A DNA stretch of 59,973 bases, taken from the NCBI GenBank assembly GCA_025360105.1, contig JANYCT010000054.1, forward strand, positions 1 through 59,973. The letters are read 5' to 3'. The position numbers and the translations under genes were made by a program. A model generated the notes under the pieces. That model searched no databases, was not told the origin of the DNA, and worked only from the letters and a program-made list of their open reading frames with translations. Each line of letters starts with the position of its first letter. The stretch's first letter is position 1. Positions 25,545 through 58,371 of the stretch are shown in pieces. Source of the DNA: Actinomycetes bacterium. GTDB lineage: Bacteria > Actinomycetota > Acidimicrobiia > Acidimicrobiales > Ilumatobacteraceae.

Positions 25545-27017
25545 ATGCCACAACACGTCATCGTCGACGGCTCCAATTTGGCCACTGAGGGCCGAACCGC
25601 GCCAAGCCTCAAGCAACTCAACGAAGCGGTCGACGCGTATCGTTGCGATCACCCGGAGGCGCTGATCACTGTGGTTGTCGATGCCACCTTTGGTCACCGC
25701 ATCGATCCCAAGGAAGTGCCCGAGTTCGAGCGCGCCATTGAGACCAACGCGTTCGTTGCGCCACCTGCCGGGGCCGTTGGTCGAGGCGATGGGTTCATTC
25801 TGAGCATCGCTCAGAAGGTGAAGGCCACCATTTTGTCGAACGACAGTTATCAGGAGTTTCACGGTGAGTACGCATGGCTCTTCGACGAGGGTCGCCTCGT
25901 TGGCGGTAAGCCCGTTCCGCACGTGGGCTGGGTGTTCGTGAACCGCACTCCTGTGCGTGGCCCGGTGAGCCGCCGTTCGGTGAAAGAACAAAAGGTCGTC
26001 GAGAAATCACCTGGTCGACGACGCGGTGCCAAGGCGGTCATCGACGCTCCGTCCATCTCAGCCGATGCTCCGATGCCCATTCCCAAGTCGGCTCCGCCGG
26101 GTGCGGTGATGCCTGGAGCGAAGCGGGCGGCCCGTGCAGAACCGACATCGTCGGAACGCGTCGGCGATCGAGCGCCCGACCGCACAGCCGAACGCCAGAC
26201 TGACAAATCAACGGCGCCAAAGTCGGCCAACGACCTGCTCGCGTTCTTGTCGTTCGTCGAGCATCATCCGGTGGGTACCACGGTGCAAGCTGTGGTGAAC
26301 AGCTATTCGTCGCACGGTGCTTACGTACTGATGGGCGATGCTCACGGCTATGTGCCGTTGCGTCTCATGGCCGACCCTGCGCCGCGTAGCGCCCGCGAGG
26401 CCATGGCACTCGGCGACACGGTCACGTTGGTCGTGCACAGTTTCGCAGCAGGGCGGCGCAGCATCGATCTCGCTGTGCCGGCGATGGCGCCCGAAACAGC
26501 ACCGGTCGCGCCCGCTCGGGGTCGTAGTGGCGTCAAGAAGGCGGCGACGCCCACCGCGAGCGAGGCTGTCGAAATCGCAGCTCCGGCGGCTACCCCTCCC
26601 AAGCAGTCCGGTCGCAAGCAGTCGGGCCCCAAGCAGGCTGTTGCGCCCGCCGGCGCACCCGATGTCATCACGACCACAGCACCCCGTGAGACAACGCCGG
26701 CTCGTCGCAGTCGTGGCCCCAAGGCCGAATCGCCAGTTGTCGCCGAGACCAAGCCAGAGACCAAGCCAGAGACCAAGCCAGAGAGCAAGCCAGCGGCCAA
26801 GTCGGTCCCATCACCCAAGGTTGTCAAGACGCCGTCCGCGAAGCGTGTTGCCAAGTCAGCAGCGGCGCCAGCTATAGATGTCGCTGCGGCCGTGCCCGCA
26901 AAGGCTGCCCGCGCGCCGAAGAAGGCATCCGCACCGACCGCGCAACCAGTCAGCGCCGCGGCGCCCAACAAATCTGCGCCGCGCCGAACGGGCGCCGCAA
27001 GAACGGCTCGGGCGTAA
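25545..27017 (+). CDS. NYN-domain (Zc3h12a-like) ribonuclease-type protein with S1-like domain and Lys/Pro/Ala tail
   Basis: This is a 490-residue protein. Residues 1-140 form a PIN/NYN nuclease fold: VIVDGSNLATEG with acidic Asp at about 7, VVVDATFGHR, and GRGDGFILSIAQKVKATILSNDSYQEF with further Asp residues. This matches metal-dependent ribonucleases such as Zc3h12a/YacP relatives. A basic linker precedes an S1-like or OB segment (about 225-310: FVEHHPVGTTVQAVVNSYSS, GAYVLMGDAHGYVPLRLM). The tail to 490 is low complexity, rich in Lys, Pro and Ala, with a four-copy 12-base repeat (ETKP). It is probably an RNA-binding or RNA-degrading factor. The ATG at 25545 is preferred over the longer frame, since the fold begins immediately after it. 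Confidence 0.82.
   Translation: MPQHVIVDGSNLATEGRTAPSLKQLNEAVDAYRCDHPEALITVVVDATFGHRIDPKEVPEFERAIETNAFVAPPAGAVGRGDGFILSIAQKVKATILSNDSYQEFHGEYAWLFDEGRLVGGKPVPHVGWVFVNRTPVRGPVSRRSVKEQKVVEKSPGRRRGAKAVIDAPSISADAPMPIPKSAPPGAVMPGAKRAARAEPTSSERVGDRAPDRTAERQTDKSTAPKSANDLLAFLSFVEHHPVGTTVQAVVNSYSSHGAYVLMGDAHGYVPLRLMADPAPRSAREAMALGDTVTLVVHSFAAGRRSIDLAVPAMAPETAPVAPARGRSGVKKAATPTASEAVEIAAPAATPPKQSGRKQSGPKQAVAPAGAPDVITTTAPRETTPARRSRGPKAESPVVAETKPETKPETKPESKPAAKSVPSPKVVKTPSAKRVAKSAAAPAIDVAAAVPAKAARAPKKASAPTAQPVSAAAPNKSAPRRTGAARTARA
26745..26792 (+). repeat. Four-copy 12-base tandem repeat (ETKP) in NYN gene
   Basis: Four in-frame units of GAGACCAAGCCA, the last with one change (GAGAGC), lie in the C-terminal basic tail. 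They probably arose by slippage and may vary in number between strains. Confidence 0.9.
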
Positions 27018-39109: not shown

Positions 39110-39922
39110 ATGGGGACATTGCGTGGACAGGTAGCGGTCGTCGTTGGTGGGCACAGTGGTTTCGGCGAGGCGATCACGCGACTGTTCGCGACGGAGGGCG
39201 CAACCGTGGTGATTGCTGGGCGTCGGATCGACGTGGTCAACGAGGTCGCCGCGTCGGTTGGTGGTCTCGGCGTGGACTGTGACATCACCGACGACGATCA
39301 GATCCAGGCGTTGGTGGGTTCCGCCCTCGACGCATACGGCAAGATCACCATTGCCGTGAATTGCGCCGGATACGAGCAGAGCACGGCGATCGCCGATCTC
39401 ACGCCGCAGAAGCTCGACGCAATGTTGGCAGTGCAGCTCAGCGGGGCGCTGTACTGCATGCGTCACCTCGGCAACGCCATGTCCGCTGCAGGTGGTGGAG
39501 CGTTTTTGTCGATCAGTTCGCTCACTGCGCACAATCCTTCTCCGGGCCTTGCCGCATACGCCAGTGCGAAGGCTGGGGTCGAGTACGCCACGAAGATCGC
39601 CGCAGTCGAATACGGCGCCCAACAGGTGCGGTTCAACACTGTCGCCGCCTCGCTCATCGAGACACCGATGACCGAGCGCATCTTCCGTGTGGAGCCCGCG
39701 ATCCAGGCGCTGCGCGAGGTCACGCCGTTGGGTCGGATGGGGACCAGTTCCGACATTGCCAGGGCGGCGCTCTTCCTCTGCGGCCCGGACTCCAGCTACA
39801 TCACCGGTCAGACACTGTGCGTCGACGGTGGTGCATCGCTGCAAATGCTTCCTTCGCCGCAGATGTTCGCCGACGTGTACCGCCGTTGGAACGAGGCCCA
39901 AACGCCACGGGAATCCGGATAG
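39110..39922 (+). CDS. Short-chain dehydrogenase/reductase
   Basis: This 270-residue SDR has the cofactor site GGHSGFGEAI at about residues 11-20, VNCAGYEQ, and the active-site Ser in SISSLTAHNP plus AYASAKAG (YxxxK). The C-terminal GPDSSYITGQTLCVDGGAS is typical of classical SDRs. The ATG at 39110 is used; a TTG at 39101 in frame falls inside the -10 region. The GMC oxidoreductase gene begins 4 bases after the stop, so the two redox enzymes are probably co-transcribed and may act in sequence on an alcohol. Confidence 0.94.
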   Translation: MGTLRGQVAVVVGGHSGFGEAITRLFATEGATVVIAGRRIDVVNEVAASVGGLGVDCDITDDDQIQALVGSALDAYGKITIAVNCAGYEQSTAIADLTPQKLDAMLAVQLSGALYCMRHLGNAMSAAGGGAFLSISSLTAHNPSPGLAAYASAKAGVEYATKIAAVEYGAQQVRFNTVAASLIETPMTERIFRVEPAIQALREVTPLGRMGTSSDIARAALFLCGPDSSYITGQTLCVDGGASLQMLPSPQMFADVYRRWNEAQTPRESG

Positions 39923-39926
39923 CGCT

Positions 39927-41372
39927 GTGCGTTTCGACACGGTGATCGTGGGGGCGGGTTCTGCCGGCGCGGTACTCGCTGCTCGCTTATCGCAGAACTC
40001 GGGTCACGAGGTGTTGTTACTCGAGGCGGGTCCTGATCACCGCAGTGCACAGACACCATCGGGCATCAGCAGCGATTCGTTCTTCGATGCCGTGTCCGAA
40101 CCGGGCCGCATCTTCGAGAGCCTGATGGCGCAGCACACCGACGGCGCTTCTGAGCGGGTGTATCAGCGAGGCCGTGGCGTCGGTGGGTCGTCTGCGGTGA
40201 ACGCGATGATCGGGCTCTGGGGACATCCCGATGACTACGACCGTTGGGAGCGCGATCTGGGTTGCGTCGGTTGGTCGTGGCGCAAGGTTGCCCCGGTGTT
40301 CGCCTCGTTGGCGGTTCCGCTCTCGCGGGCGCAACCCAGCGAATGGGGCAGCATCGACGCCGCACTTGTCGAGGCCGCACGATCCCTAGGGCACCCGCAC
40401 TGTTCTGACGCGCTGCTTCCTTTGTCGTTGGGTGTGGGCCCGGCGTGGCTCACACGTGCCGGTGGACGTCGTGTTTCGGTGAACGACACCTACCTGGAGC
40501 CCGCCCGCGAACGAGCCAACCTAACTATTCGCGGTGACACGTTGGTCGACCGCGTCGTGCTCGACAATCGCCGTGCGACGGGTGTTCGTCTGGCCGACGG
40601 AGAACTGATCGAAGCTGCCGAGGTGATCGTGTGCGGCGGAGCGATTCACTCGCCTGCCGTGCTGCTGCGCAGCGGTGTCGATCTCGTCGGTATCGGTCGT
40701 GGTCTACGCGACCACGCTTCGGCCAGCATCACCCTTGCACTGCACGAAAGCGCACGCAATGATCCGGGTTCGCTTGCGGTGGCAACGATGCTGCGATGGT
40801 CTTCCTCCACTGGATTCGGCGACCTGCAGCTGCTACCGGTAAATCACCTCGGGCGCGCTCCACAGGCCGCTGGCCTCGGTGTGTTGATGGCGGCGATCAT
40901 GTCGGTGCACTCTCGTGGTTCGGTGACGCTGCGCAGCACCGACCCAGACGACGATCCAGTGGTGCGCTTCAGCATGCTCTCCGACGAACGCGACCTCGCG
41001 CGCCTTCGCGAGGCGCTGAGACATATGGTTCAGCTCGTCGACACCGAGCCATTCCGGCGCGTCACCGAGTCAGTGTTCATTGATGGCATTGGCACCCCGC
41101 TTGCGGCGCTCCCCGACGATGATGCCGCGCTCGATTGTTGGCTCGCAGCGCATGTGGCCGACTATGTGCACGCCGCTTCGAGCTGTCGGATGGGGTCCGC
41201 AGACGATGACTTCGCCGTGGTCGATACGCAGGGCTGCGTGCACGGCTACGAGGCGTTGCGTGTCTGCGACGCCAGTGTGTTCCCCGACCTCCCGCGCGCC
41301 AACACCCACCTGCCCGCCGTGATGGTTGCCGAACGCATTGCCACGTTCATGATCGAGGCCGCGCGCAGCTGA
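39927..41372 (+). CDS. GMC family FAD-dependent oxidoreductase
   Basis: This 481-residue glucose-methanol-choline oxidoreductase has the FAD dinucleotide fold VIVGAGSAGAVLAARL at the N-terminus, GRGVGGSSAVNAMIGLWG, and the C-terminal catalytic region HAASSCRMGSADDDF with NTHLPAVMVAER. It is a little short for the family (often 500-560). It should oxidise an alcohol; the substrate is not predictable. The GTG at 39927 is chosen because the frame upstream lies inside the SDR gene. Confidence 0.93.
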   Translation: MRFDTVIVGAGSAGAVLAARLSQNSGHEVLLLEAGPDHRSAQTPSGISSDSFFDAVSEPGRIFESLMAQHTDGASERVYQRGRGVGGSSAVNAMIGLWGHPDDYDRWERDLGCVGWSWRKVAPVFASLAVPLSRAQPSEWGSIDAALVEAARSLGHPHCSDALLPLSLGVGPAWLTRAGGRRVSVNDTYLEPARERANLTIRGDTLVDRVVLDNRRATGVRLADGELIEAAEVIVCGGAIHSPAVLLRSGVDLVGIGRGLRDHASASITLALHESARNDPGSLAVATMLRWSSSTGFGDLQLLPVNHLGRAPQAAGLGVLMAAIMSVHSRGSVTLRSTDPDDDPVVRFSMLSDERDLARLREALRHMVQLVDTEPFRRVTESVFIDGIGTPLAALPDDDAALDCWLAAHVADYVHAASSCRMGSADDDFAVVDTQGCVHGYEALRVCDASVFPDLPRANTHLPAVMVAERIATFMIEAARS

Positions 41373-41465: not shown

Positions 41466-42608
41466 TCAGAGGGAGGCGAAGACAGCGTCGATGAGCGCCC
41501 GATTTCGTGTGCTCTGCCATCGCGGGATCACGTGGTTCATCACATATCCGAAGGCAACGCCTGAATCAGGGTCGGCGAAACCCAGCGCTCCGCCGGTGCC
41601 GAAGTGGCCAAAGCTGCGCGGGTTGGGGCCAAAGGGTCGGCGCGATGTGGTGGGCTTGAAGCCGAGGCCGAACACTGCTTGCTCGCCGAGCACCGGGCAG
41701 TAGCCCTCGGATTGAATACGGGTTGCTTCGCTGAGCAGCGCCGACGAGAGCAGCCGGTTCGGTTCGAGCAATGCCGAATAGAACCTGGCCACCCCACTGG
41801 CTGACCCATGGCCGTTGGTGGAAGGGACCTGGGCCGCCCGCCATTGGGGAGAGTTGACCACTCCCGCAGACGAGTACCCGGGCGGATTGAAGTAGCCCGA
41901 GGCGATCATCAGCGGCTCTCCGGCCAGACTCGAGAGGTCGAGTTCACCGAGTGATTGGCTTGGCGCCCAGATCACGTCGGCACAGCGATGTTGTTCTGCT
42001 TCGGGGACTCCGAACCACAGGTCGGCGCCGAGCGGACTCGCGATCGAACGGAGTCGATCCCCGGGCATTTCGCCGGTGACGCGGCGCACGATCTCGCCCA
42101 CGAGATGACCGTAGGTGTTGGTGTGGTAGGTGTGCCGTGTGCCCGGCTCCCACCACGGCTCGGTTGACGCAAGTGCCGATGTCATCCTCTCCCAGTCCCA
42201 TAGATTCTCGTTGGTGAGTCGCTCGCGGATCGCCGGAACGCCGGCTCGGTGGCAGAGCGCGTGGCGCACTGTCGCGCGCTCCTTGCCGCAGGCTGCGAAC
42301 TCGGGCCAGATCGATGCGATGGGATCGTCGAGGCCGATGAGTCCCGCATCGATGAGCTGCAGCGCGAGTAACGCAACCACGGCCTTGCCGACGGAGTAGA
42401 AGTTCACGATCGTGTCGTGCTGCCACGGTTGCGCGATGGGATCATTCTCGGCCGCGGTTCTGCCTCCGACGAGATCGACCATCACCTCGCCGCCTACCAG
42501 CACGCAGACGGCACCTCCGACTTCGCCGCGCTCGTCGAAGTTGCGAGTGAACTCGGTGCGAACGGTGGCGAATGCCTCATGGCACTGCCCGCTGATTGGC
42601 GTGGTCAT
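41466..42608 (-). CDS. Beta-lactamase-fold serine hydrolase (EstB/class C type)
   Basis: This 380-residue cytoplasmic protein has the SxxK nucleophile in YSVGKAVVAL, the second motif YHTNTYGHLVG and a third block FGHFGTGGALGF in place of the KTG box. Family members are esterases or D-Ala-D-Ala-type peptidases, and without a signal peptide an intracellular esterase is more likely. Its ATG overlaps the stop of the WS/DGAT gene, so it may act on the same lipids. Confidence 0.9.
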   Translation of the reverse strand: MTTPISGQCHEAFATVRTEFTRNFDERGEVGGAVCVLVGGEVMVDLVGGRTAAENDPIAQPWQHDTIVNFYSVGKAVVALLALQLIDAGLIGLDDPIASIWPEFAACGKERATVRHALCHRAGVPAIRERLTNENLWDWERMTSALASTEPWWEPGTRHTYHTNTYGHLVGEIVRRVTGEMPGDRLRSIASPLGADLWFGVPEAEQHRCADVIWAPSQSLGELDLSSLAGEPLMIASGYFNPPGYSSAGVVNSPQWRAAQVPSTNGHGSASGVARFYSALLEPNRLLSSALLSEATRIQSEGYCPVLGEQAVFGLGFKPTTSRRPFGPNPRSFGHFGTGGALGFADPDSGVAFGYVMNHVIPRWQSTRNRALIDAVFASL

Positions 42609-44263
42609 CGTGGCCGAGGTGTTGCGGCTTTCTTGGCAGCAACGGGACGCATTTTTGCGGCGGCTTTCTTGGCCGCAACGGGACGCTTTTTTGCGGCGGC
42701 CTTTTTGGCCGGTGTCTTCTGTGCAGCGGTCCTCTTGGTCGGCGCATTCTTTTCGGCCTTTGGTGGCACCCCAACGTCAGGCACGCAGTACGCCAGCAGT
42801 TCGTCCATGGCCTCGTGCAGCAGATCGGTCATGATCCACAAATCGGGCACAAGATCGCGACACGCGATGAAGCCGAAATCGAGGTTGCCGTTGTAGCTCT
42901 GCACCGTCATGTTCAGTCCCTGGCCGTCGGCGAGCGCCGACACCGGGTAGAAGTGCTTCAGTTCGGCGCCGGCCATGTACAGGGGATAGCTGGGTCCCGG
43001 CACGTTGCTGATGATGATGTTGAACGGCGGATTCATGCGATCGGCGATGCGTAGGCGACTGTACATTCGCATTGCGCGTGCCGCGATCGCCGGTGGAGCG
43101 AACTGGGTGAAGTCCTGCAAGGTCTCGGCGGGGATAGCGGCAAAGCTGTCCTTGGCTGCGGTCATCGATTCCTGCACCCGGCGTAGGCGCGACACCGGAT
43201 CAGGGTCATTGGTGGCCAGATCGGCGAGCAGGGCCGAAACCCGGTTCTGATAGGCATCGGACTCGTCGCCACTGCGCACGCTCACGGGAACCATCGCGAT
43301 CAGCGGCTCGTCAGGCAGGCAGTCGTGCAGGAGGAGGTAGCGGCGCAGCGCACCTGAGCACAGCGCCATCACGACATCGTTGAATGTGCAACCAAACTGG
43401 CGTCGCACGCGTTTAGCGTCGTCAAGCGGGATCGTTGTGTTTGCGAATCGGCGGTGGGGCGTGATCGGGTGGTTCCACGGCGTGCGTGGCGCCTGGGTCG
43501 TCGGAAGTGCTGGCGGGTGATCGGCCTCGGAGTTCTGGCCCCGGAGGCGCTCACGCATCATCCGCCCGAACCACCCCGGCATCGGTTGGGCGACGAGATC
43601 GGCCAGTGCCCGCAGCCCGCCAATCTGTGTTGAAGCGGCGAGTTCGCGGATACTGCGCACGGACAGTCGAATCATCTTCTCCGGTCGACGCACGTATTCC
43701 ATCGCGGTGATCCGCATCAACTCTTCGTCGGTAGGCACGACGCCCGGTGTCCACGGTGCGATGTATCCCGTGGGTCGATACTCGCGATTCGGATCCAAGA
43801 TCGCAGCCAGCATGGACGCGCCTGCTGCACCATCGATGGCGGCGTGGTGCACCTTCGTGAGCTGGGCGATGAGTTTGCCGTTGTCGACGCCCTCGATCAC
43901 ATAGAGCTCCCAGAGCGGCCGGCCGCGATCGAGGGGTCGCGCGACGATGCGACTCACTACTTCGGCGAGTTGCTCAGGGTTGCCCGGCGGCGGCACGGCG
44001 TGGTGGCGAACGTGGAAGTCGATGTCGAACTCGGGGTCTTCGATCCAATACGGCAGGTCGAGTCCGAGCGGAATCTGCACGAGGCGACGGCGGAAGGGTG
44101 CGAGTTGATCGATGCGCTCGAGGATTATTTGCTTGGTGGCCTCGAGCCCAGCTCCGCCTGGCGCGCCGGTTGGGTCATACAGGTTCAACGACGACACGTG
44201 GCCGAACGTGGTGGGGGTCTCCATGTTCAGGAAGCTGACATCGATACCGCTGAGTTGACGCAT
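42605..44263 (-). CDS. Wax ester synthase/diacylglycerol acyltransferase (WS/DGAT) with basic AKK-repeat tail
   Basis: This 552-residue acyltransferase makes wax esters or triacylglycerol from acyl-CoA. The active-site motif is KVHHAAIDGAAGASML (HHxxxDG), and the family's NVPGPSYPLYMAGA and PVSVRSG blocks are present. The N-terminus is MRQLSGIDVSFLNMETPTTF, starting at 44263; the longer frame adds sequence without family features. Unusually, the last 45 residues form a Lys/Ala/Pro-rich tail with a 12-residue repeat, like histone H1 or HupB tails. A TAGACT hexamer 7 bases before the ATG predicts a leaderless mRNA. It overlaps the serine hydrolase. Confidence 0.93.
   Translation of the reverse strand: MRQLSGIDVSFLNMETPTTFGHVSSLNLYDPTGAPGGAGLEATKQIILERIDQLAPFRRRLVQIPLGLDLPYWIEDPEFDIDFHVRHHAVPPPGNPEQLAEVVSRIVARPLDRGRPLWELYVIEGVDNGKLIAQLTKVHHAAIDGAAGASMLAAILDPNREYRPTGYIAPWTPGVVPTDEELMRITAMEYVRRPEKMIRLSVRSIRELAASTQIGGLRALADLVAQPMPGWFGRMMRERLRGQNSEADHPPALPTTQAPRTPWNHPITPHRRFANTTIPLDDAKRVRRQFGCTFNDVVMALCSGALRRYLLLHDCLPDEPLIAMVPVSVRSGDESDAYQNRVSALLADLATNDPDPVSRLRRVQESMTAAKDSFAAIPAETLQDFTQFAPPAIAARAMRMYSRLRIADRMNPPFNIIISNVPGPSYPLYMAGAELKHFYPVSALADGQGLNMTVQSYNGNLDFGFIACRDLVPDLWIMTDLLHEAMDELLAYCVPDVGVPPKAEKNAPTKRTAAQKTPAKKAAAKKRPVAAKKAAAKMRPVAAKKAATPRPR
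42626..42697 (-). repeat. Two-copy 36-base tandem repeat in WS/DGAT tail
   Basis: Two nearly identical 36-base units (42626-42661 and 42662-42697), with only two base differences, plus a degenerate third copy toward 42720. Each codes for 12 residues of the AAAKKRPVAAKK type. Confidence 0.85.
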
Positions 44264-44270
44264 GTGGGAG

Positions 44271-44276
44271 AGTCTA
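44271..44276 (-). promoter_or_regulatory. Candidate -10 of WS/DGAT gene, leaderless
   Basis: TAGACT on the minus strand ends 7 bases before the ATG at 44263, with no Shine-Dalgarno in between. Confidence 0.5.
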
Positions 44277-44325
44277 GAACTCGCGCACCACTGCGAATCC
44301 AAGGAGCCGTGGGCTCGAGTCGGCT

Positions 44326-45195
44326 TCATCCCTTGGCGTGTTCCACCAGCGGGAAGATGATGGGCTCGTTGGCCGCGGCGCCGACGGCATCGAGTCGCTG
44401 TTGCTCAGTGAGCGCAACGAAAGTCTCTGCGGCGTCGAGCACTGCGGGCAGCAATTGCAAATCGCCCGGGGTGCAAAAGGCGTGCACGCCGGGGTGGGAC
44501 AACGCGAAACGAATACCGTTGGTGAGGCCTTCGACGGTTGTTTGTGGTTCGTACCACGTCCAGTGTGTGGGCGTGCGGTCGCCCCAGGGTTGCTTGGCGG
44601 CAGCCTTGATCACCATCACACCCACGTCGCGTGCGGCGCATTCGCCGAGCAACTCAAGTACGTCGTCGCGGTACACAGGGTCGGCATAGACCCGCGGGTA
44701 GAGCGGGAACATCACGGTGTCGAGATTCCATCGTCGCAACGCCTCGAGGTGGGCGCGAGGCGCGCCCAGATCGTGACCCGTAATACCGACGAAACGGAAC
44801 AGCCCTTCATCGCGCATGCCCAGCATTGCCTCGATGGCCGCGGCGCGTTCGTCAAGCACGTCGAGTCCGGTGACCCCATGCGCCTGATAGAGATCGAAGG
44901 TGTCGCAGCCGAGCTTGGTGAGCGACGTCTCGAGTTGCGCGCGCACTCCATCCGGATGGCCGCGCCCGGTCTTTTCGCCGATGAACAGTCGGTCGCGCAT
45001 GGCGCCGATGGTGGGACCCGCAGCATCCTCGGCTACGCCGTACGACGGCGCAATGTCGATGTGGTTCACGCCGCGATCCAGCGCGAGGTGCAGCGCGGCC
45101 TCTGCCTGCTCGGGTGTCGCCTTCCAGAACGTGGCGCCGCCCAGAATCGCAATACTGCTCTCGTGTTCTGTACGGCCGAGTCGGCGTGTTTCCAT
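44326..45195 (-). CDS. Aldo/keto reductase
   Basis: This 289-residue TIM-barrel protein begins METRRLGRTEHESSIAILGG. It carries RGVNHIDIAPSYGVAEDAAG (catalytic Asp and Tyr), the Lys in IGEKTG, and the family's DTFDLYQAHGV with the active His. It uses NADPH to reduce carbonyls; the substrate is not known. A TAGAGT hexamer lies 6 bases before the ATG. It is divergent from an MBL-fold gene with 70 bases between starts. Confidence 0.93.
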   Translation of the reverse strand: METRRLGRTEHESSIAILGGATFWKATPEQAEAALHLALDRGVNHIDIAPSYGVAEDAAGPTIGAMRDRLFIGEKTGRGHPDGVRAQLETSLTKLGCDTFDLYQAHGVTGLDVLDERAAAIEAMLGMRDEGLFRFVGITGHDLGAPRAHLEALRRWNLDTVMFPLYPRVYADPVYRDDVLELLGECAARDVGVMVIKAAAKQPWGDRTPTHWTWYEPQTTVEGLTNGIRFALSHPGVHAFCTPGDLQLLPAVLDAAETFVALTEQQRLDAVGAAANEPIIFPLVEHAKG

Positions 45196-45201
45196 GCTCG
45201 A

Positions 45202-45207
45202 ACTCTA
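45202..45207 (-). promoter_or_regulatory. Candidate -10 of aldo/keto reductase gene, leaderless
   Basis: TAGAGT on the minus strand ends 6 bases before the ATG at 45195. Confidence 0.5.
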
Positions 45208-45265
45208 CGTGCGCACAGGTCGGGGCGGTGTCGCTCAGCGACATCGGGGGGTGCAAGAGTTGGAC

Positions 45266-46195
45266 ATGGCATATTCGAAGGGTCTGCACGAACTGGGCGA
45301 CGGGTGCTACGCGTATCTGCAGCCCGATGGAGGCTGGGGTTGGAGTAACGCAGGGCTCATCGTTGGCGATGGCGTTTCGCTGCTGGTTGACACGCTGTTC
45401 GACCTGAGGCTCACCGGCGACATGCTCGACTCAATGTCGTTCGCGATCGCTGGCGCACCAATCTCGACGCTGGTCAACACACACGCAAACGGCGACCACT
45501 GCTACGGCAACCAGTTGGTGCGGGGGGCCGAGATCATTGCGAGCGAAGCGGCGGCGCACGAGATGACCGATGTGCCGCCGTCGATGCTGGCTGCGCTCAA
45601 TAGCGCACCCGGCGAACTGGGAGAATTGTTCCGCGGCTTCTTCGGAGCGTTCGATTTCGACGGCATTGAGCACACGCTGCCGACGCGGACGTTCGAGGGT
45701 CGTCTCGACATCGAGATCGGCGGTCGCGTCATCGAGCTCATCGAGGTGGGGCCTGCACATACCGCGGGAGATGTGATCGCCTATGTGCCCGACTCGAAGA
45801 CTGTCTATACCGGCGACATCTTGTTCATCGGTGGCACGCCCATCGTGTGGGCAGGCCCGTTGACCAACTGGATCAACGCCTGCGATCTCATGCTGGGCAT
45901 GGACATCGAAACGGTGGTGCCGGGCCACGGACCACTCACCAACAAGAGCGGAATCGTGCAGGTACGCGACTATCTCACGTTCGTGCAGGACGAGGCGACG
46001 GCTCGATTCCACGCAGGCATGGATGCATGGGACGCAGCTCGCGACATCGCGCTCAATCGGTTCGACGGGTGGGGTGAGTCCGGCCGTATCAGCGTGAACG
46101 TCGACACCGTCTACCGTTCACTCGACCCCACTCACCAGAGCCCGAATGTGATCGAGCAGTTCAAACAGATGGCACTGCTCGAGACTCACTACTAG
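45266..46195 (+). CDS. MBL-fold metallohydrolase
   Basis: This 309-residue metallo-beta-lactamase-fold protein has the metal motif NTHANGDHCYGNQ (HxNxDH, with Asn replacing the second His), followed by GPAHTAGDVIAYVPDSKTVYTGDILF and VPGHGPLTN. The HxNxDH variant is found in a recognised subgroup. The ATG at 45266 begins the conserved YSKGLHELGDGCYAYLQPDG; the longer frame upstream lies inside the divergent gene. Its stop shares CTAG with the SURF1 gene. The substrate is unknown. Confidence 0.9.
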   Translation: MAYSKGLHELGDGCYAYLQPDGGWGWSNAGLIVGDGVSLLVDTLFDLRLTGDMLDSMSFAIAGAPISTLVNTHANGDHCYGNQLVRGAEIIASEAAAHEMTDVPPSMLAALNSAPGELGELFRGFFGAFDFDGIEHTLPTRTFEGRLDIEIGGRVIELIEVGPAHTAGDVIAYVPDSKTVYTGDILFIGGTPIVWAGPLTNWINACDLMLGMDIETVVPGHGPLTNKSGIVQVRDYLTFVQDEATARFHAGMDAWDAARDIALNRFDGWGESGRISVNVDTVYRSLDPTHQSPNVIEQFKQMALLETHY

Positions 46196-46935
46196 TGCAT
46201 GAGCGCCGCGGCCTGCCGCCGGGTCATGGCCGATCGGCGCACTGCGAAAACCCAGCCAGCAATTGCGCACAGCGAGAAGAACAGCCACTGCACCGTGTAC
46301 GAGACGTGTGGAGGACCGCTGCTGAGATTTGGTGGCGGCACCGGCACCGGAGGCGAAGCAGATGCGGGTTTCGACGCAATGAAGTCGAGATAGACCGGAG
46401 CGACTTTAGTGTTGATGTGCTGTGCGATGAAGACAAGGTCCACCCGGCGTACCTCGGTGTTCGTGGCGCTCGGGTCGTCGGTGAGTTCGCCGGTGTTGCG
46501 GATCTGGCTAGTGCGCGCCGTGCCGCCGATCTCCAACGTTGCGTTGGGTGCGGCGGTCACGATGACGCCCGTTGGCACGAAACCGCGGTTTACGATGATG
46601 ATCGGGCCGTTGGCAATCTGGAACGGCGTGAGCACGTTCACGCCGTTCACGCCGTTTTGGGTGCGGTTGATCTGCAGCAGCTCACCCTTGTCGAGATACG
46701 AGCCGATCGCAGTGACCCGATACCACTCGATGTCGTCGGCGGCAGTACCCGATGCGAGGAGCGTCGCAAGTGATTTCGGTTCGGCCTGCTCGCGCATTTC
46801 GACCATGGTGACGAAATCGTCGCGAGCGATGTGCTTGTTCCACTGCCAGCGAGCGAGCAAGACCATGCCGACGACGGAGGCCAAGATGACCACATGGAAC
46901 AACAGCCATTTGGGGCGCAGCAGAAACCGATACAT
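46192..46935 (-). CDS. SURF1 family cytochrome oxidase assembly protein
   Basis: This 247-residue protein has an N-terminal and a C-terminal membrane helix (HVVILASVVGMVLLARWQW and VQWLFFSLCAIAGWVFAVRR) around an extracytoplasmic domain with NGVNGVNVLTPFQI and IIIVNRGFVP, the SURF1 layout. It helps assemble haem-copper oxidase. A Pro-rich stretch near residue 200 precedes the second helix. GAGG is close to the ATG, and a TACCGT hexamer lies 9 bases upstream. Confidence 0.93.
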   Translation of the reverse strand: MYRFLLRPKWLLFHVVILASVVGMVLLARWQWNKHIARDDFVTMVEMREQAEPKSLATLLASGTAADDIEWYRVTAIGSYLDKGELLQINRTQNGVNGVNVLTPFQIANGPIIIVNRGFVPTGVIVTAAPNATLEIGGTARTSQIRNTGELTDDPSATNTEVRRVDLVFIAQHINTKVAPVYLDFIASKPASASPPVPVPPPNLSSGPPHVSYTVQWLFFSLCAIAGWVFAVRRSAMTRRQAAALMH

Positions 46936-57555: not shown

Positions 57556-58371
57556 ATGAGTCTGCTGTCATCCCACTCGATCGGCCCGTCGGCTCTCGGC
57601 CTGCTCGCCGACACGGTCAACGATGCGAGCAGCACCCGCAAGCTCTACCTCATTGCCCTCGGCCTTGCACTGCTCGGTGGAGTGTTGTTGATCGTCACCG
57701 TGTGGTTCTGGCGCAGCACACGGCCCGAGCCTGAGTTGCTCGCCCCTCTCGAACAGATGGGCGCACGTACGTTTCGTCAACTCGACGGTCGCGCGCAGAA
57801 GGAACTGCTCGATTCAGTTCGTCCCGAAGATGCCCAACCGATGCGCTGGGGAGTGGTGCACGGCGATCCGATGCCGGGCACAGAAATCGATCTCGAGGCC
57901 GCTGCCCGAGCCGACATGATTGGCTACGACGACCTTCGCGAGCCGGAGACCGAGCTCGAGGCGGAGCTCGATCCTGAATCCGATTCTGATTCTGATTCTG
58001 CTTCTGCTTCTGCTTCTGATTCTGATTCTGTTTCCGATTCTGAGCCGGACGTCGAGTCTGTTGATACAGCGGGTGCAGCACTGGTGGATGAACCCGTTGA
58101 AGAACCCGAGGTTCCCGCCGTCGGTGAAACCGACGTCGTCATTCCCGAGACCGCTGACGAGATGCCGCCCGAGACCGCCGACGAGGTTGCAGAGGTTCCG
58201 CCCGAGGTTGCAGGAGTGGCAGCCGTTGCAGAAGCAGACGAACCCGATGTGGGGCCCGTTGCCAGTGGCGACGAGCCGACAGCAGCGGACAGTGATGACC
58301 TAGGCGACCGTTCCCGTAGCGCGGTGCTGATGGATCCATTGCTCAGATTTCCCGGACGCGACACGAACTGA
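57556..58371 (+). CDS. Single-helix membrane protein with acidic Asp/Ser repeat tail
   Basis: This 271-residue protein has one membrane helix (KLYLIALGLALLGGVLLIVTV, about residues 28-48), a short region and then a long acidic tail (Glu, Asp, Val, Pro, Ser), including an in-frame SDSDSDSASASASDSDS stretch from a hexanucleotide microsatellite. It is divergent from the gene at 57484. The tail is probably disordered. No function is recognised. Confidence 0.75.
   Translation: MSLLSSHSIGPSALGLLADTVNDASSTRKLYLIALGLALLGGVLLIVTVWFWRSTRPEPELLAPLEQMGARTFRQLDGRAQKELLDSVRPEDAQPMRWGVVHGDPMPGTEIDLEAAARADMIGYDDLREPETELEAELDPESDSDSDSASASASDSDSVSDSEPDVESVDTAGAALVDEPVEEPEVPAVGETDVVIPETADEMPPETADEVAEVPPEVAGVAAVAEADEPDVGPVASGDEPTAADSDDLGDRSRSAVLMDPLLRFPGRDTN
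57982..58041 (+). repeat. Hexanucleotide microsatellite coding for Asp/Ala-Ser repeats
   Basis: Ten 6-base units: GATTCT x3, GCTTCT x3, GATTCT x2, GTTTCC and GATTCT, all in frame. The GAT and TCT codons contrast with the GC-ending codons of the surroundings. Confidence 0.9.

Follow-up and report, generated by a model that had tools for sequence, protein, structure and literature searches.

The window, which is the whole stretch of DNA analysed here (59,973 nucleotides from an actinomycete of the family Ilumatobacteraceae), encodes a wax ester synthase / diacylglycerol acyltransferase (WS/DGAT) that carries, behind its folded domains, a positively charged C-terminal tail predicted to be disordered. 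Such tails recur among the related enzymes of the family, and their sequences change fast, with the charge usually kept. By analogy with proteins that attach storage granules to the nucleoid, it seems possible, if somewhat short of probable, that the tail is a disordered polycation docking the enzyme and its lipid droplet on the nucleoid, a reading in which DNA as the ligand and droplet positioning as the purpose are the parts that we infer.

The WS/DGAT gene, its tail and its neighbours

The gene and its surroundings in the window are arranged as follows:

39687..41372 (+): GMC oxidoreductase, ORF as called, domain from about residue 83; relative in 5 of 8 compared loci
41466..42608 (-): protein with a serine beta-lactamase fold (PF00144), possibly an esterase; downstream, its ATG overlapping the WS/DGAT stop
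42605..44329 (-): WS/DGAT gene, 574 aa; true start possibly at 44263
42608..42787 (-): K/A/P/R tail, 60 aa, net charge +16, predicted disordered
42624..42711 (-): 36-bp tandem repeat in the tail, 2.4 copies, 92% matches
42788..44263 (-): folded WS/DGAT core with HHAAIDG, from alignment across relatives
44326..45195 (-): aldo/keto reductase (PF00248), upstream
44900..46195 (+): hydrolase with a metallo-beta-lactamase fold (called ORF; domain from about residue 145); a relative at 4 of the 8 loci
46192..46935 (-): SURF1-family gene; a relative at 7 of the 8 loci, with one weak match (29% identity)

Judged by family, motif and predicted fold, the ORF at 42605-44329 encodes a complete WS/DGAT acyltransferase. 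Its product matched WS_DGAT_cat (PF03007; aa 26-320, 227.5 bits against a cut-off of 23.6), WS_DGAT_C (PF06974; aa 362-511, 138.8 bits against 20.7) and TIGR02946 (478.9 bits against 309.95). The HHxxxDG sequence is the catalytic motif of WS/DGAT acyltransferases, and residues H139, H140, D144 and G145 (numbered from M23) were invariant across the 44 aligned WS/DGAT sequences. The ATG at 44329 shares bases with the stop codon of the aldo/keto reductase gene upstream, and M23 (44263) may be an alternative true start, since most relatives align from about residue 20-23. An AlphaFold model built from 44 sequences, with the window enzyme taken from M23, was mostly confident over the core, residues 244-252 and 376-401 being the low stretches within it. 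Its best PDB matches, 6chj from Marinobacter (E 1.1e-37) and 7nxg from Acinetobacter (E 4.4e-32), share the WS/DGAT fold and family; unlike the window protein, these chains have 455 and 463 residues, and the match to the query ends at 449 and 442, which leaves little room for a tail.

In the window enzyme the core ends near residue 514, and the tail (aa 515-574) reads CVPDVGVPPKAEKNAPTKRTAAQKTPAKKAAAKKRPVAAKKAAAKMRPVAAKKAATPRPR, with 18 K+R, 2 D+E and, among its 60 residues, only five valines and one methionine as hydrophobics. The pLDDT stayed near 40 from model residue 511 onwards, and the AlphaFold model of the window enzyme predicted neither helix nor strand in the tail. This lysine/alanine/proline C-terminus, with one literal PAKKA and predicted disorder, is a tail of the type seen in the granule-to-nucleoid linkers MLDS, PhaM and PhaF, and the domain search found WS/DGAT domains only, with no phasin- or HBHA-type granule-binding domain before it. 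An earlier note on this DNA had described a WS/DGAT with a basic K/A/P tail of about 45 residues built from a 36-base repeat; the enzyme and its tail were borne out, and so was the repeat. The tail comprises about 60 residues, and the repeat at 42624-42711 supplies a part of it.

The neighbourhood was compared in eight distinct relative loci (L008 and L125 being one contig), some of which end too early for the neighbours to be judged. A frameshift or read-through artefact as the origin of the tail was ruled out by in-frame tails in relatives with conserved neighbours, and the recent frameshift that the earlier note had named as a possible refutation did not materialise, because the tail is kept in relatives and the surrounding gene order is conserved. 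A frame change may have occurred within one of the relatives, as the tail of L090 closes with EEEGCREEE repeats at the place where L151, its near twin, has AAKK; it looks frameshifted within AAKK repeats, although an assembly error might explain this. In tail-less relatives, the three frames past the stop were read at 8 loci and showed no lysine-rich remnant. In the tail-less L040, of genus g35, the frame past the stop continues arginine/alanine/proline-rich, and the family-search match continued past this stop as far as the query reached; the locus may therefore hold a decayed tail.

Distribution of basic tails among WS/DGATs

The family search gave a match at E up to 1e-120 in 55 of 200 genomes. 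Together with a relatives search, fetched stretches and named genomes, it yielded 191 ORF hits, of which 15 were dropped because they had no stop in the locus, an incomplete core or a partial divergent match (L013, L054, L024, L071, L135 and two in L062; one hit each in L023, L064, L069, L095, L129 and L138; and L003 and L004, the divergent WS/DGAT copies of the window genome itself), and merging identical cores left 151. Tails were scored by a looser test, in which a basic tail has at least 15 residues past the core and a net charge of at least +5, and by a strict test, which required the final 40 residues to hold at least 9 K+R, at least 5 K and no more than 3 D+E, with 80% A/K/P/R/S/T/G. 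In all these counts, related WS/DGAT sequences are not independent.

Basic tails were found on 42 of the 57 assessable family WS/DGATs with at least 44% identity (27/57 by the strict test), spanning 18-146 residues. The proportion was 18/28 (strict 7/28) at identities of at least 60% and 24/29 (strict 20/29) between 44 and 60%, and one of three family members below 44% was basic (strict 0/3). The literal PAKKA occurs in 8 of the 42 basic tails and the [APST]AKK motif in 26. At the level of genomes, 38 of the 51 that could be assessed have at least one basic-tailed WS/DGAT; four of the 55 matching genomes were left uncounted (G005 and G066, where the gene runs off the contig, G172 and G098), and in G172 the frame is broken, with the second piece bearing a 62-residue basic tail. 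Among the 15 family members lacking a tail are those of three g35 genomes and, in four small genomes, five copies. For the 13 genomes without a tailed copy, reading 30 of 38 matching places revealed no consistent pattern of a substitute tail on another WS/DGAT; some of these other enzymes end in short basic stretches (L277, L279, L280, L284, L285 and L288) and others do not.

The window genome has four WS/DGATs, and the three other copies extend 0, 4 and 29 residues beyond the core, none of them basic. The earlier statement that WS/DGATs normally end after the folded domain holds for these three copies, yet it is too general as a rule, because a basic tail is also present on 21 of 91 WS/DGATs outside the family (8/91 by the strict test).

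A tree of 105 cores with at least 43.5% identity (quick IQ-TREE, LG+G4, tails excluded) required 15 changes of the tail label, compared with 34.8 for shuffled labels, counts that cannot separate gain from loss. The basic tails of the family fall mostly in two paralogue clades. The starred clade of 28 that contains the window gene has 18 tailed members, and a second group, with most of the 45-50% paralogues, has 22 of 24 (support 82); the group drawn beside the first clade has 2 of 28, the root of the tree being only drawn and not inferred. Around the second group lie mycobacterial copies with tails (L139, L141, L142) and without (L146, L147, L150). Absence of the tail from close relatives, which the earlier note had named as a possible refutation, did not come true: the tail is present in all five members of a smaller starred clade with the window gene and in most of the assessed genomes. 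But the next branches include the sister genus g35, three genomes of which have WS/DGATs, close to the window gene on the tree, that stop where the core stops; in G087, a fourth member of this genus, a paralogue (L081) is tailed. Also close to the window gene, five copies in four genus g2 genomes of about 2 Mb have 6-7 residues past the core.

The background frequency of such tails was estimated from 780 kb of family DNA, taken as 39 stretches from five genomes (G000, G016, G020, G043 and G061). The stretches were not selected by motif, except that five G000 stretches lie on contigs with motif matches elsewhere; being drawn from the family, this background is no matched control for the 91 non-family WS/DGATs. 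Among the genes of at least 150 aa called with a GC3 heuristic, one of 535 passed the strict test (L228), and in the window one of 41, the WS/DGAT itself. The GC3 caller is rough, since it overlooked one real case (a phasin-like gene, L237) and omits genes below 150 aa. All six-frame ORFs of at least 90 aa in the same 780 kb gave 3 of 3188 (L104, of 92 aa, L228 and L237), and a longest-first gene call gave 1 of 600.

Sequence turnover and charge

Comparison of close pairs showed many replacements in the tails, for the most part exchanges within the set A, K, R, P, T, S and Q, and mainly silent differences in the cores. Residue order and length turn over fast in the tail, with positive charge usually persisting. 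Frames were compared in 49 tails selected for being basic in the coding frame, where the mean net charge was +0.23 per residue; frame +1 was more basic (+0.36 per residue) and interrupted by stops in 22 of 49, and frame +2 was nearly neutral (-0.03 per residue), with stops in 13 of 49. Nucleotide-shuffled tail DNA gave +0.12 per residue against the observed +0.23, so that composition accounts for about half of the charge. This pattern is compatible with selection on charge, without being proof of it.

These data bear on the possibility that the tail has no specific job and is slippage-made low-complexity sequence of a GC-rich genome, tolerated at the C-terminus, which we regard as improbable. 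It would agree with the 36-bp tandem repeat, the rapid turnover of length and residues with its frequent replacements, the share of charge that composition alone yields and the several lineages without a tail. Repeat units of repeat-rich tails gave no clear signal of a silent-site excess, the mismatches per codon being 0.38, 0.28 and 0.40 at the first, second and third position, and so lent selection on charge no support. However, the strict-test frequency among the family WS/DGATs far exceeds that among called genes and six-frame ORFs, even if the relatives are not independent, and the alternative frames are interrupted by stops or, in frame +2, uncharged, in a set of tails that was preselected as basic.

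Possible partners of the tail and comparison with known systems

Other proteins with similar tails were sought in the window genome by two motif scans, which gave ten places, the WS/DGAT included. Pfam identified topoisomerase I, IF-3, in which a single KKAPVKK patch precedes an acidic end, and glyceraldehyde-3-phosphate dehydrogenase (GAPDH, L108), an ordinary enzyme that ends in a short basic KKAASASKKAAAKKR stretch. A further place encodes a phasin-like protein (L237:5305-5851; TIGR01837, E 3.9e-7; PF05597, E 1.3e-4; both under the curated cut-off). Together with the proteins at L235:10690-11103 and L233:7461-8478, which like it have long AAPAKK or PAKKA-type tails, it is a candidate droplet coat or nucleoid protein. 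A protein made almost wholly of KAAPAKK repeats lies directly downstream of an HU gene (L124:1-170) and is cut by the contig end, and a similar AKP-repeat piece terminates another contig (L120; contig ends C44 and C79); the two are perhaps one gene. The ten places are completed by two small proteins of no clear family and by one that carries repeats in its N-terminal region and matched nothing in Pfam. A DksA-like identity considered for the protein at C34:251k was dropped, as it had no Pfam match, and PHA synthase was rejected as a real storage system, since PhaC_N was not found in this 96.9%-complete genome. Separately, a GATTCT repeat in 12 copies at 57970-58043 of the window encodes a Ser/Asp-rich acidic stretch, in an ORF that by eye has one hydrophobic segment.

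The company of like-tailed proteins leans to nucleic acids and granules, yet it is mixed. The window also encodes an NYN ribonuclease with an S1 domain (25545-27014, plus strand) that has a long K/A/P-rich tail with ETKP repeats, and L228, from another family genome, starts like this ribonuclease and has a very regular TAAKK tail. These K/A/P-rich tails would suit binding of the WS/DGAT tail to RNA, ribosomes or polyphosphate, or a role in driving condensates, with fat synthesis coupled to the growth state, as would AlgP, a protein with a PhaF-type DNA-binding domain that is reported to position polyphosphate granules (PMC13052382); no link of WS/DGATs to RNA or polyphosphate emerged from the analyses made here, and we consider such a role very unlikely.

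Proteins of known function offer precedents for DNA. MLDS, a lipid-droplet protein of the actinobacterium Rhodococcus jostii RHA1 homologous to HBHA/TadA, is reported to bind DNA through its C-terminal PAKKA motifs, and replacing lysine by glutamate abolishes the binding (PMC5504291), while PhaM of Cupriavidus and PhaF of Pseudomonas are described as keeping polyhydroxyalkanoate (PHA) granules on the nucleoid through C-terminal PAKKA or AAKP repeats (PMC9049629, PMC5658603, PMC13052382). A reading in which the WS/DGAT tail binds DNA or another polyanion, as the earlier note had suggested, is partly supported and fits these precedents, because the MLDS, PhaM and PhaF tails bind DNA or the nucleoid. 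The arrangement differs, since MLDS is a droplet coat protein and PhaM and PhaF are phasin-like adaptors separate from the synthase PhaC, whereas the window tail sits on the synthesising enzyme.

Alternatively, the tail may bind the enzyme electrostatically to anionic phospholipids (phosphatidylinositol, cardiolipin), either in the membrane or in the monolayer around the droplet, and so prolong its residence near its substrates, a reading that we judge somewhat unlikely. WS/DGATs act on membrane-borne diacylglycerol, a location that favours such an anchor, and the free variation in tail order is what a membrane polycation could allow. The lysine-rich C-terminal repeats of mycobacterial HBHA are likewise linked to lipid inclusion formation, and HBHA deprived of them is reported to fail in phosphatidylinositol binding and in restoring inclusions (PMC6176652); because its tail is reportedly needed for phosphatidylinositol binding, the surface of the membrane or droplet is almost as plausible a partner as DNA. 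HBHA differs from the window protein in being a coiled-coil adhesin, and the ligands in its lipid assays are phosphatidylinositols. Against a phospholipid anchor, some like-tailed proteins of the same genome act on DNA or adjoin HU, the window tail is poor in hydrophobic residues and has no predicted helix, and the MLDS tail, which shares the motif, binds DNA (PMC5504291).

If the tail docks on the nucleoid, the folded WS/DGAT part would synthesise its product, triacylglycerol or wax ester, at the surface of the membrane or droplet. The tail would bind a polyanion regardless of sequence, nucleoid DNA being the likeliest, and would thereby keep the synthase and its nascent droplet on the nucleoid, so that both are spaced there and apportioned when the cell divides. 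That a neutral-lipid synthase should be its own nucleoid tether, joining synthesis, droplet nucleation and chromosome-linked inheritance in one polypeptide, in two paralogue clades and with no separate phasin-type linker, we hold to be rather unlikely. One metagenomic study describes WS/DGATs of Ilumatobacter and, in homologues from Bacteroidota, a C-terminal domain; its available portion makes no mention of basic tails (PMC10351704). Our limited literature search found no description of basic WS/DGAT tails; within it, the parts are known, and their combination on one enzyme and its family-wide spread appear undescribed.

Altogether, the tail is a case in which charge persists more than sequence. 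In the systems compared here, the proteins that keep storage granules on the nucleoid are separate coats or adaptors, and a tether built into the synthase, if true, would indicate where the droplets are born.
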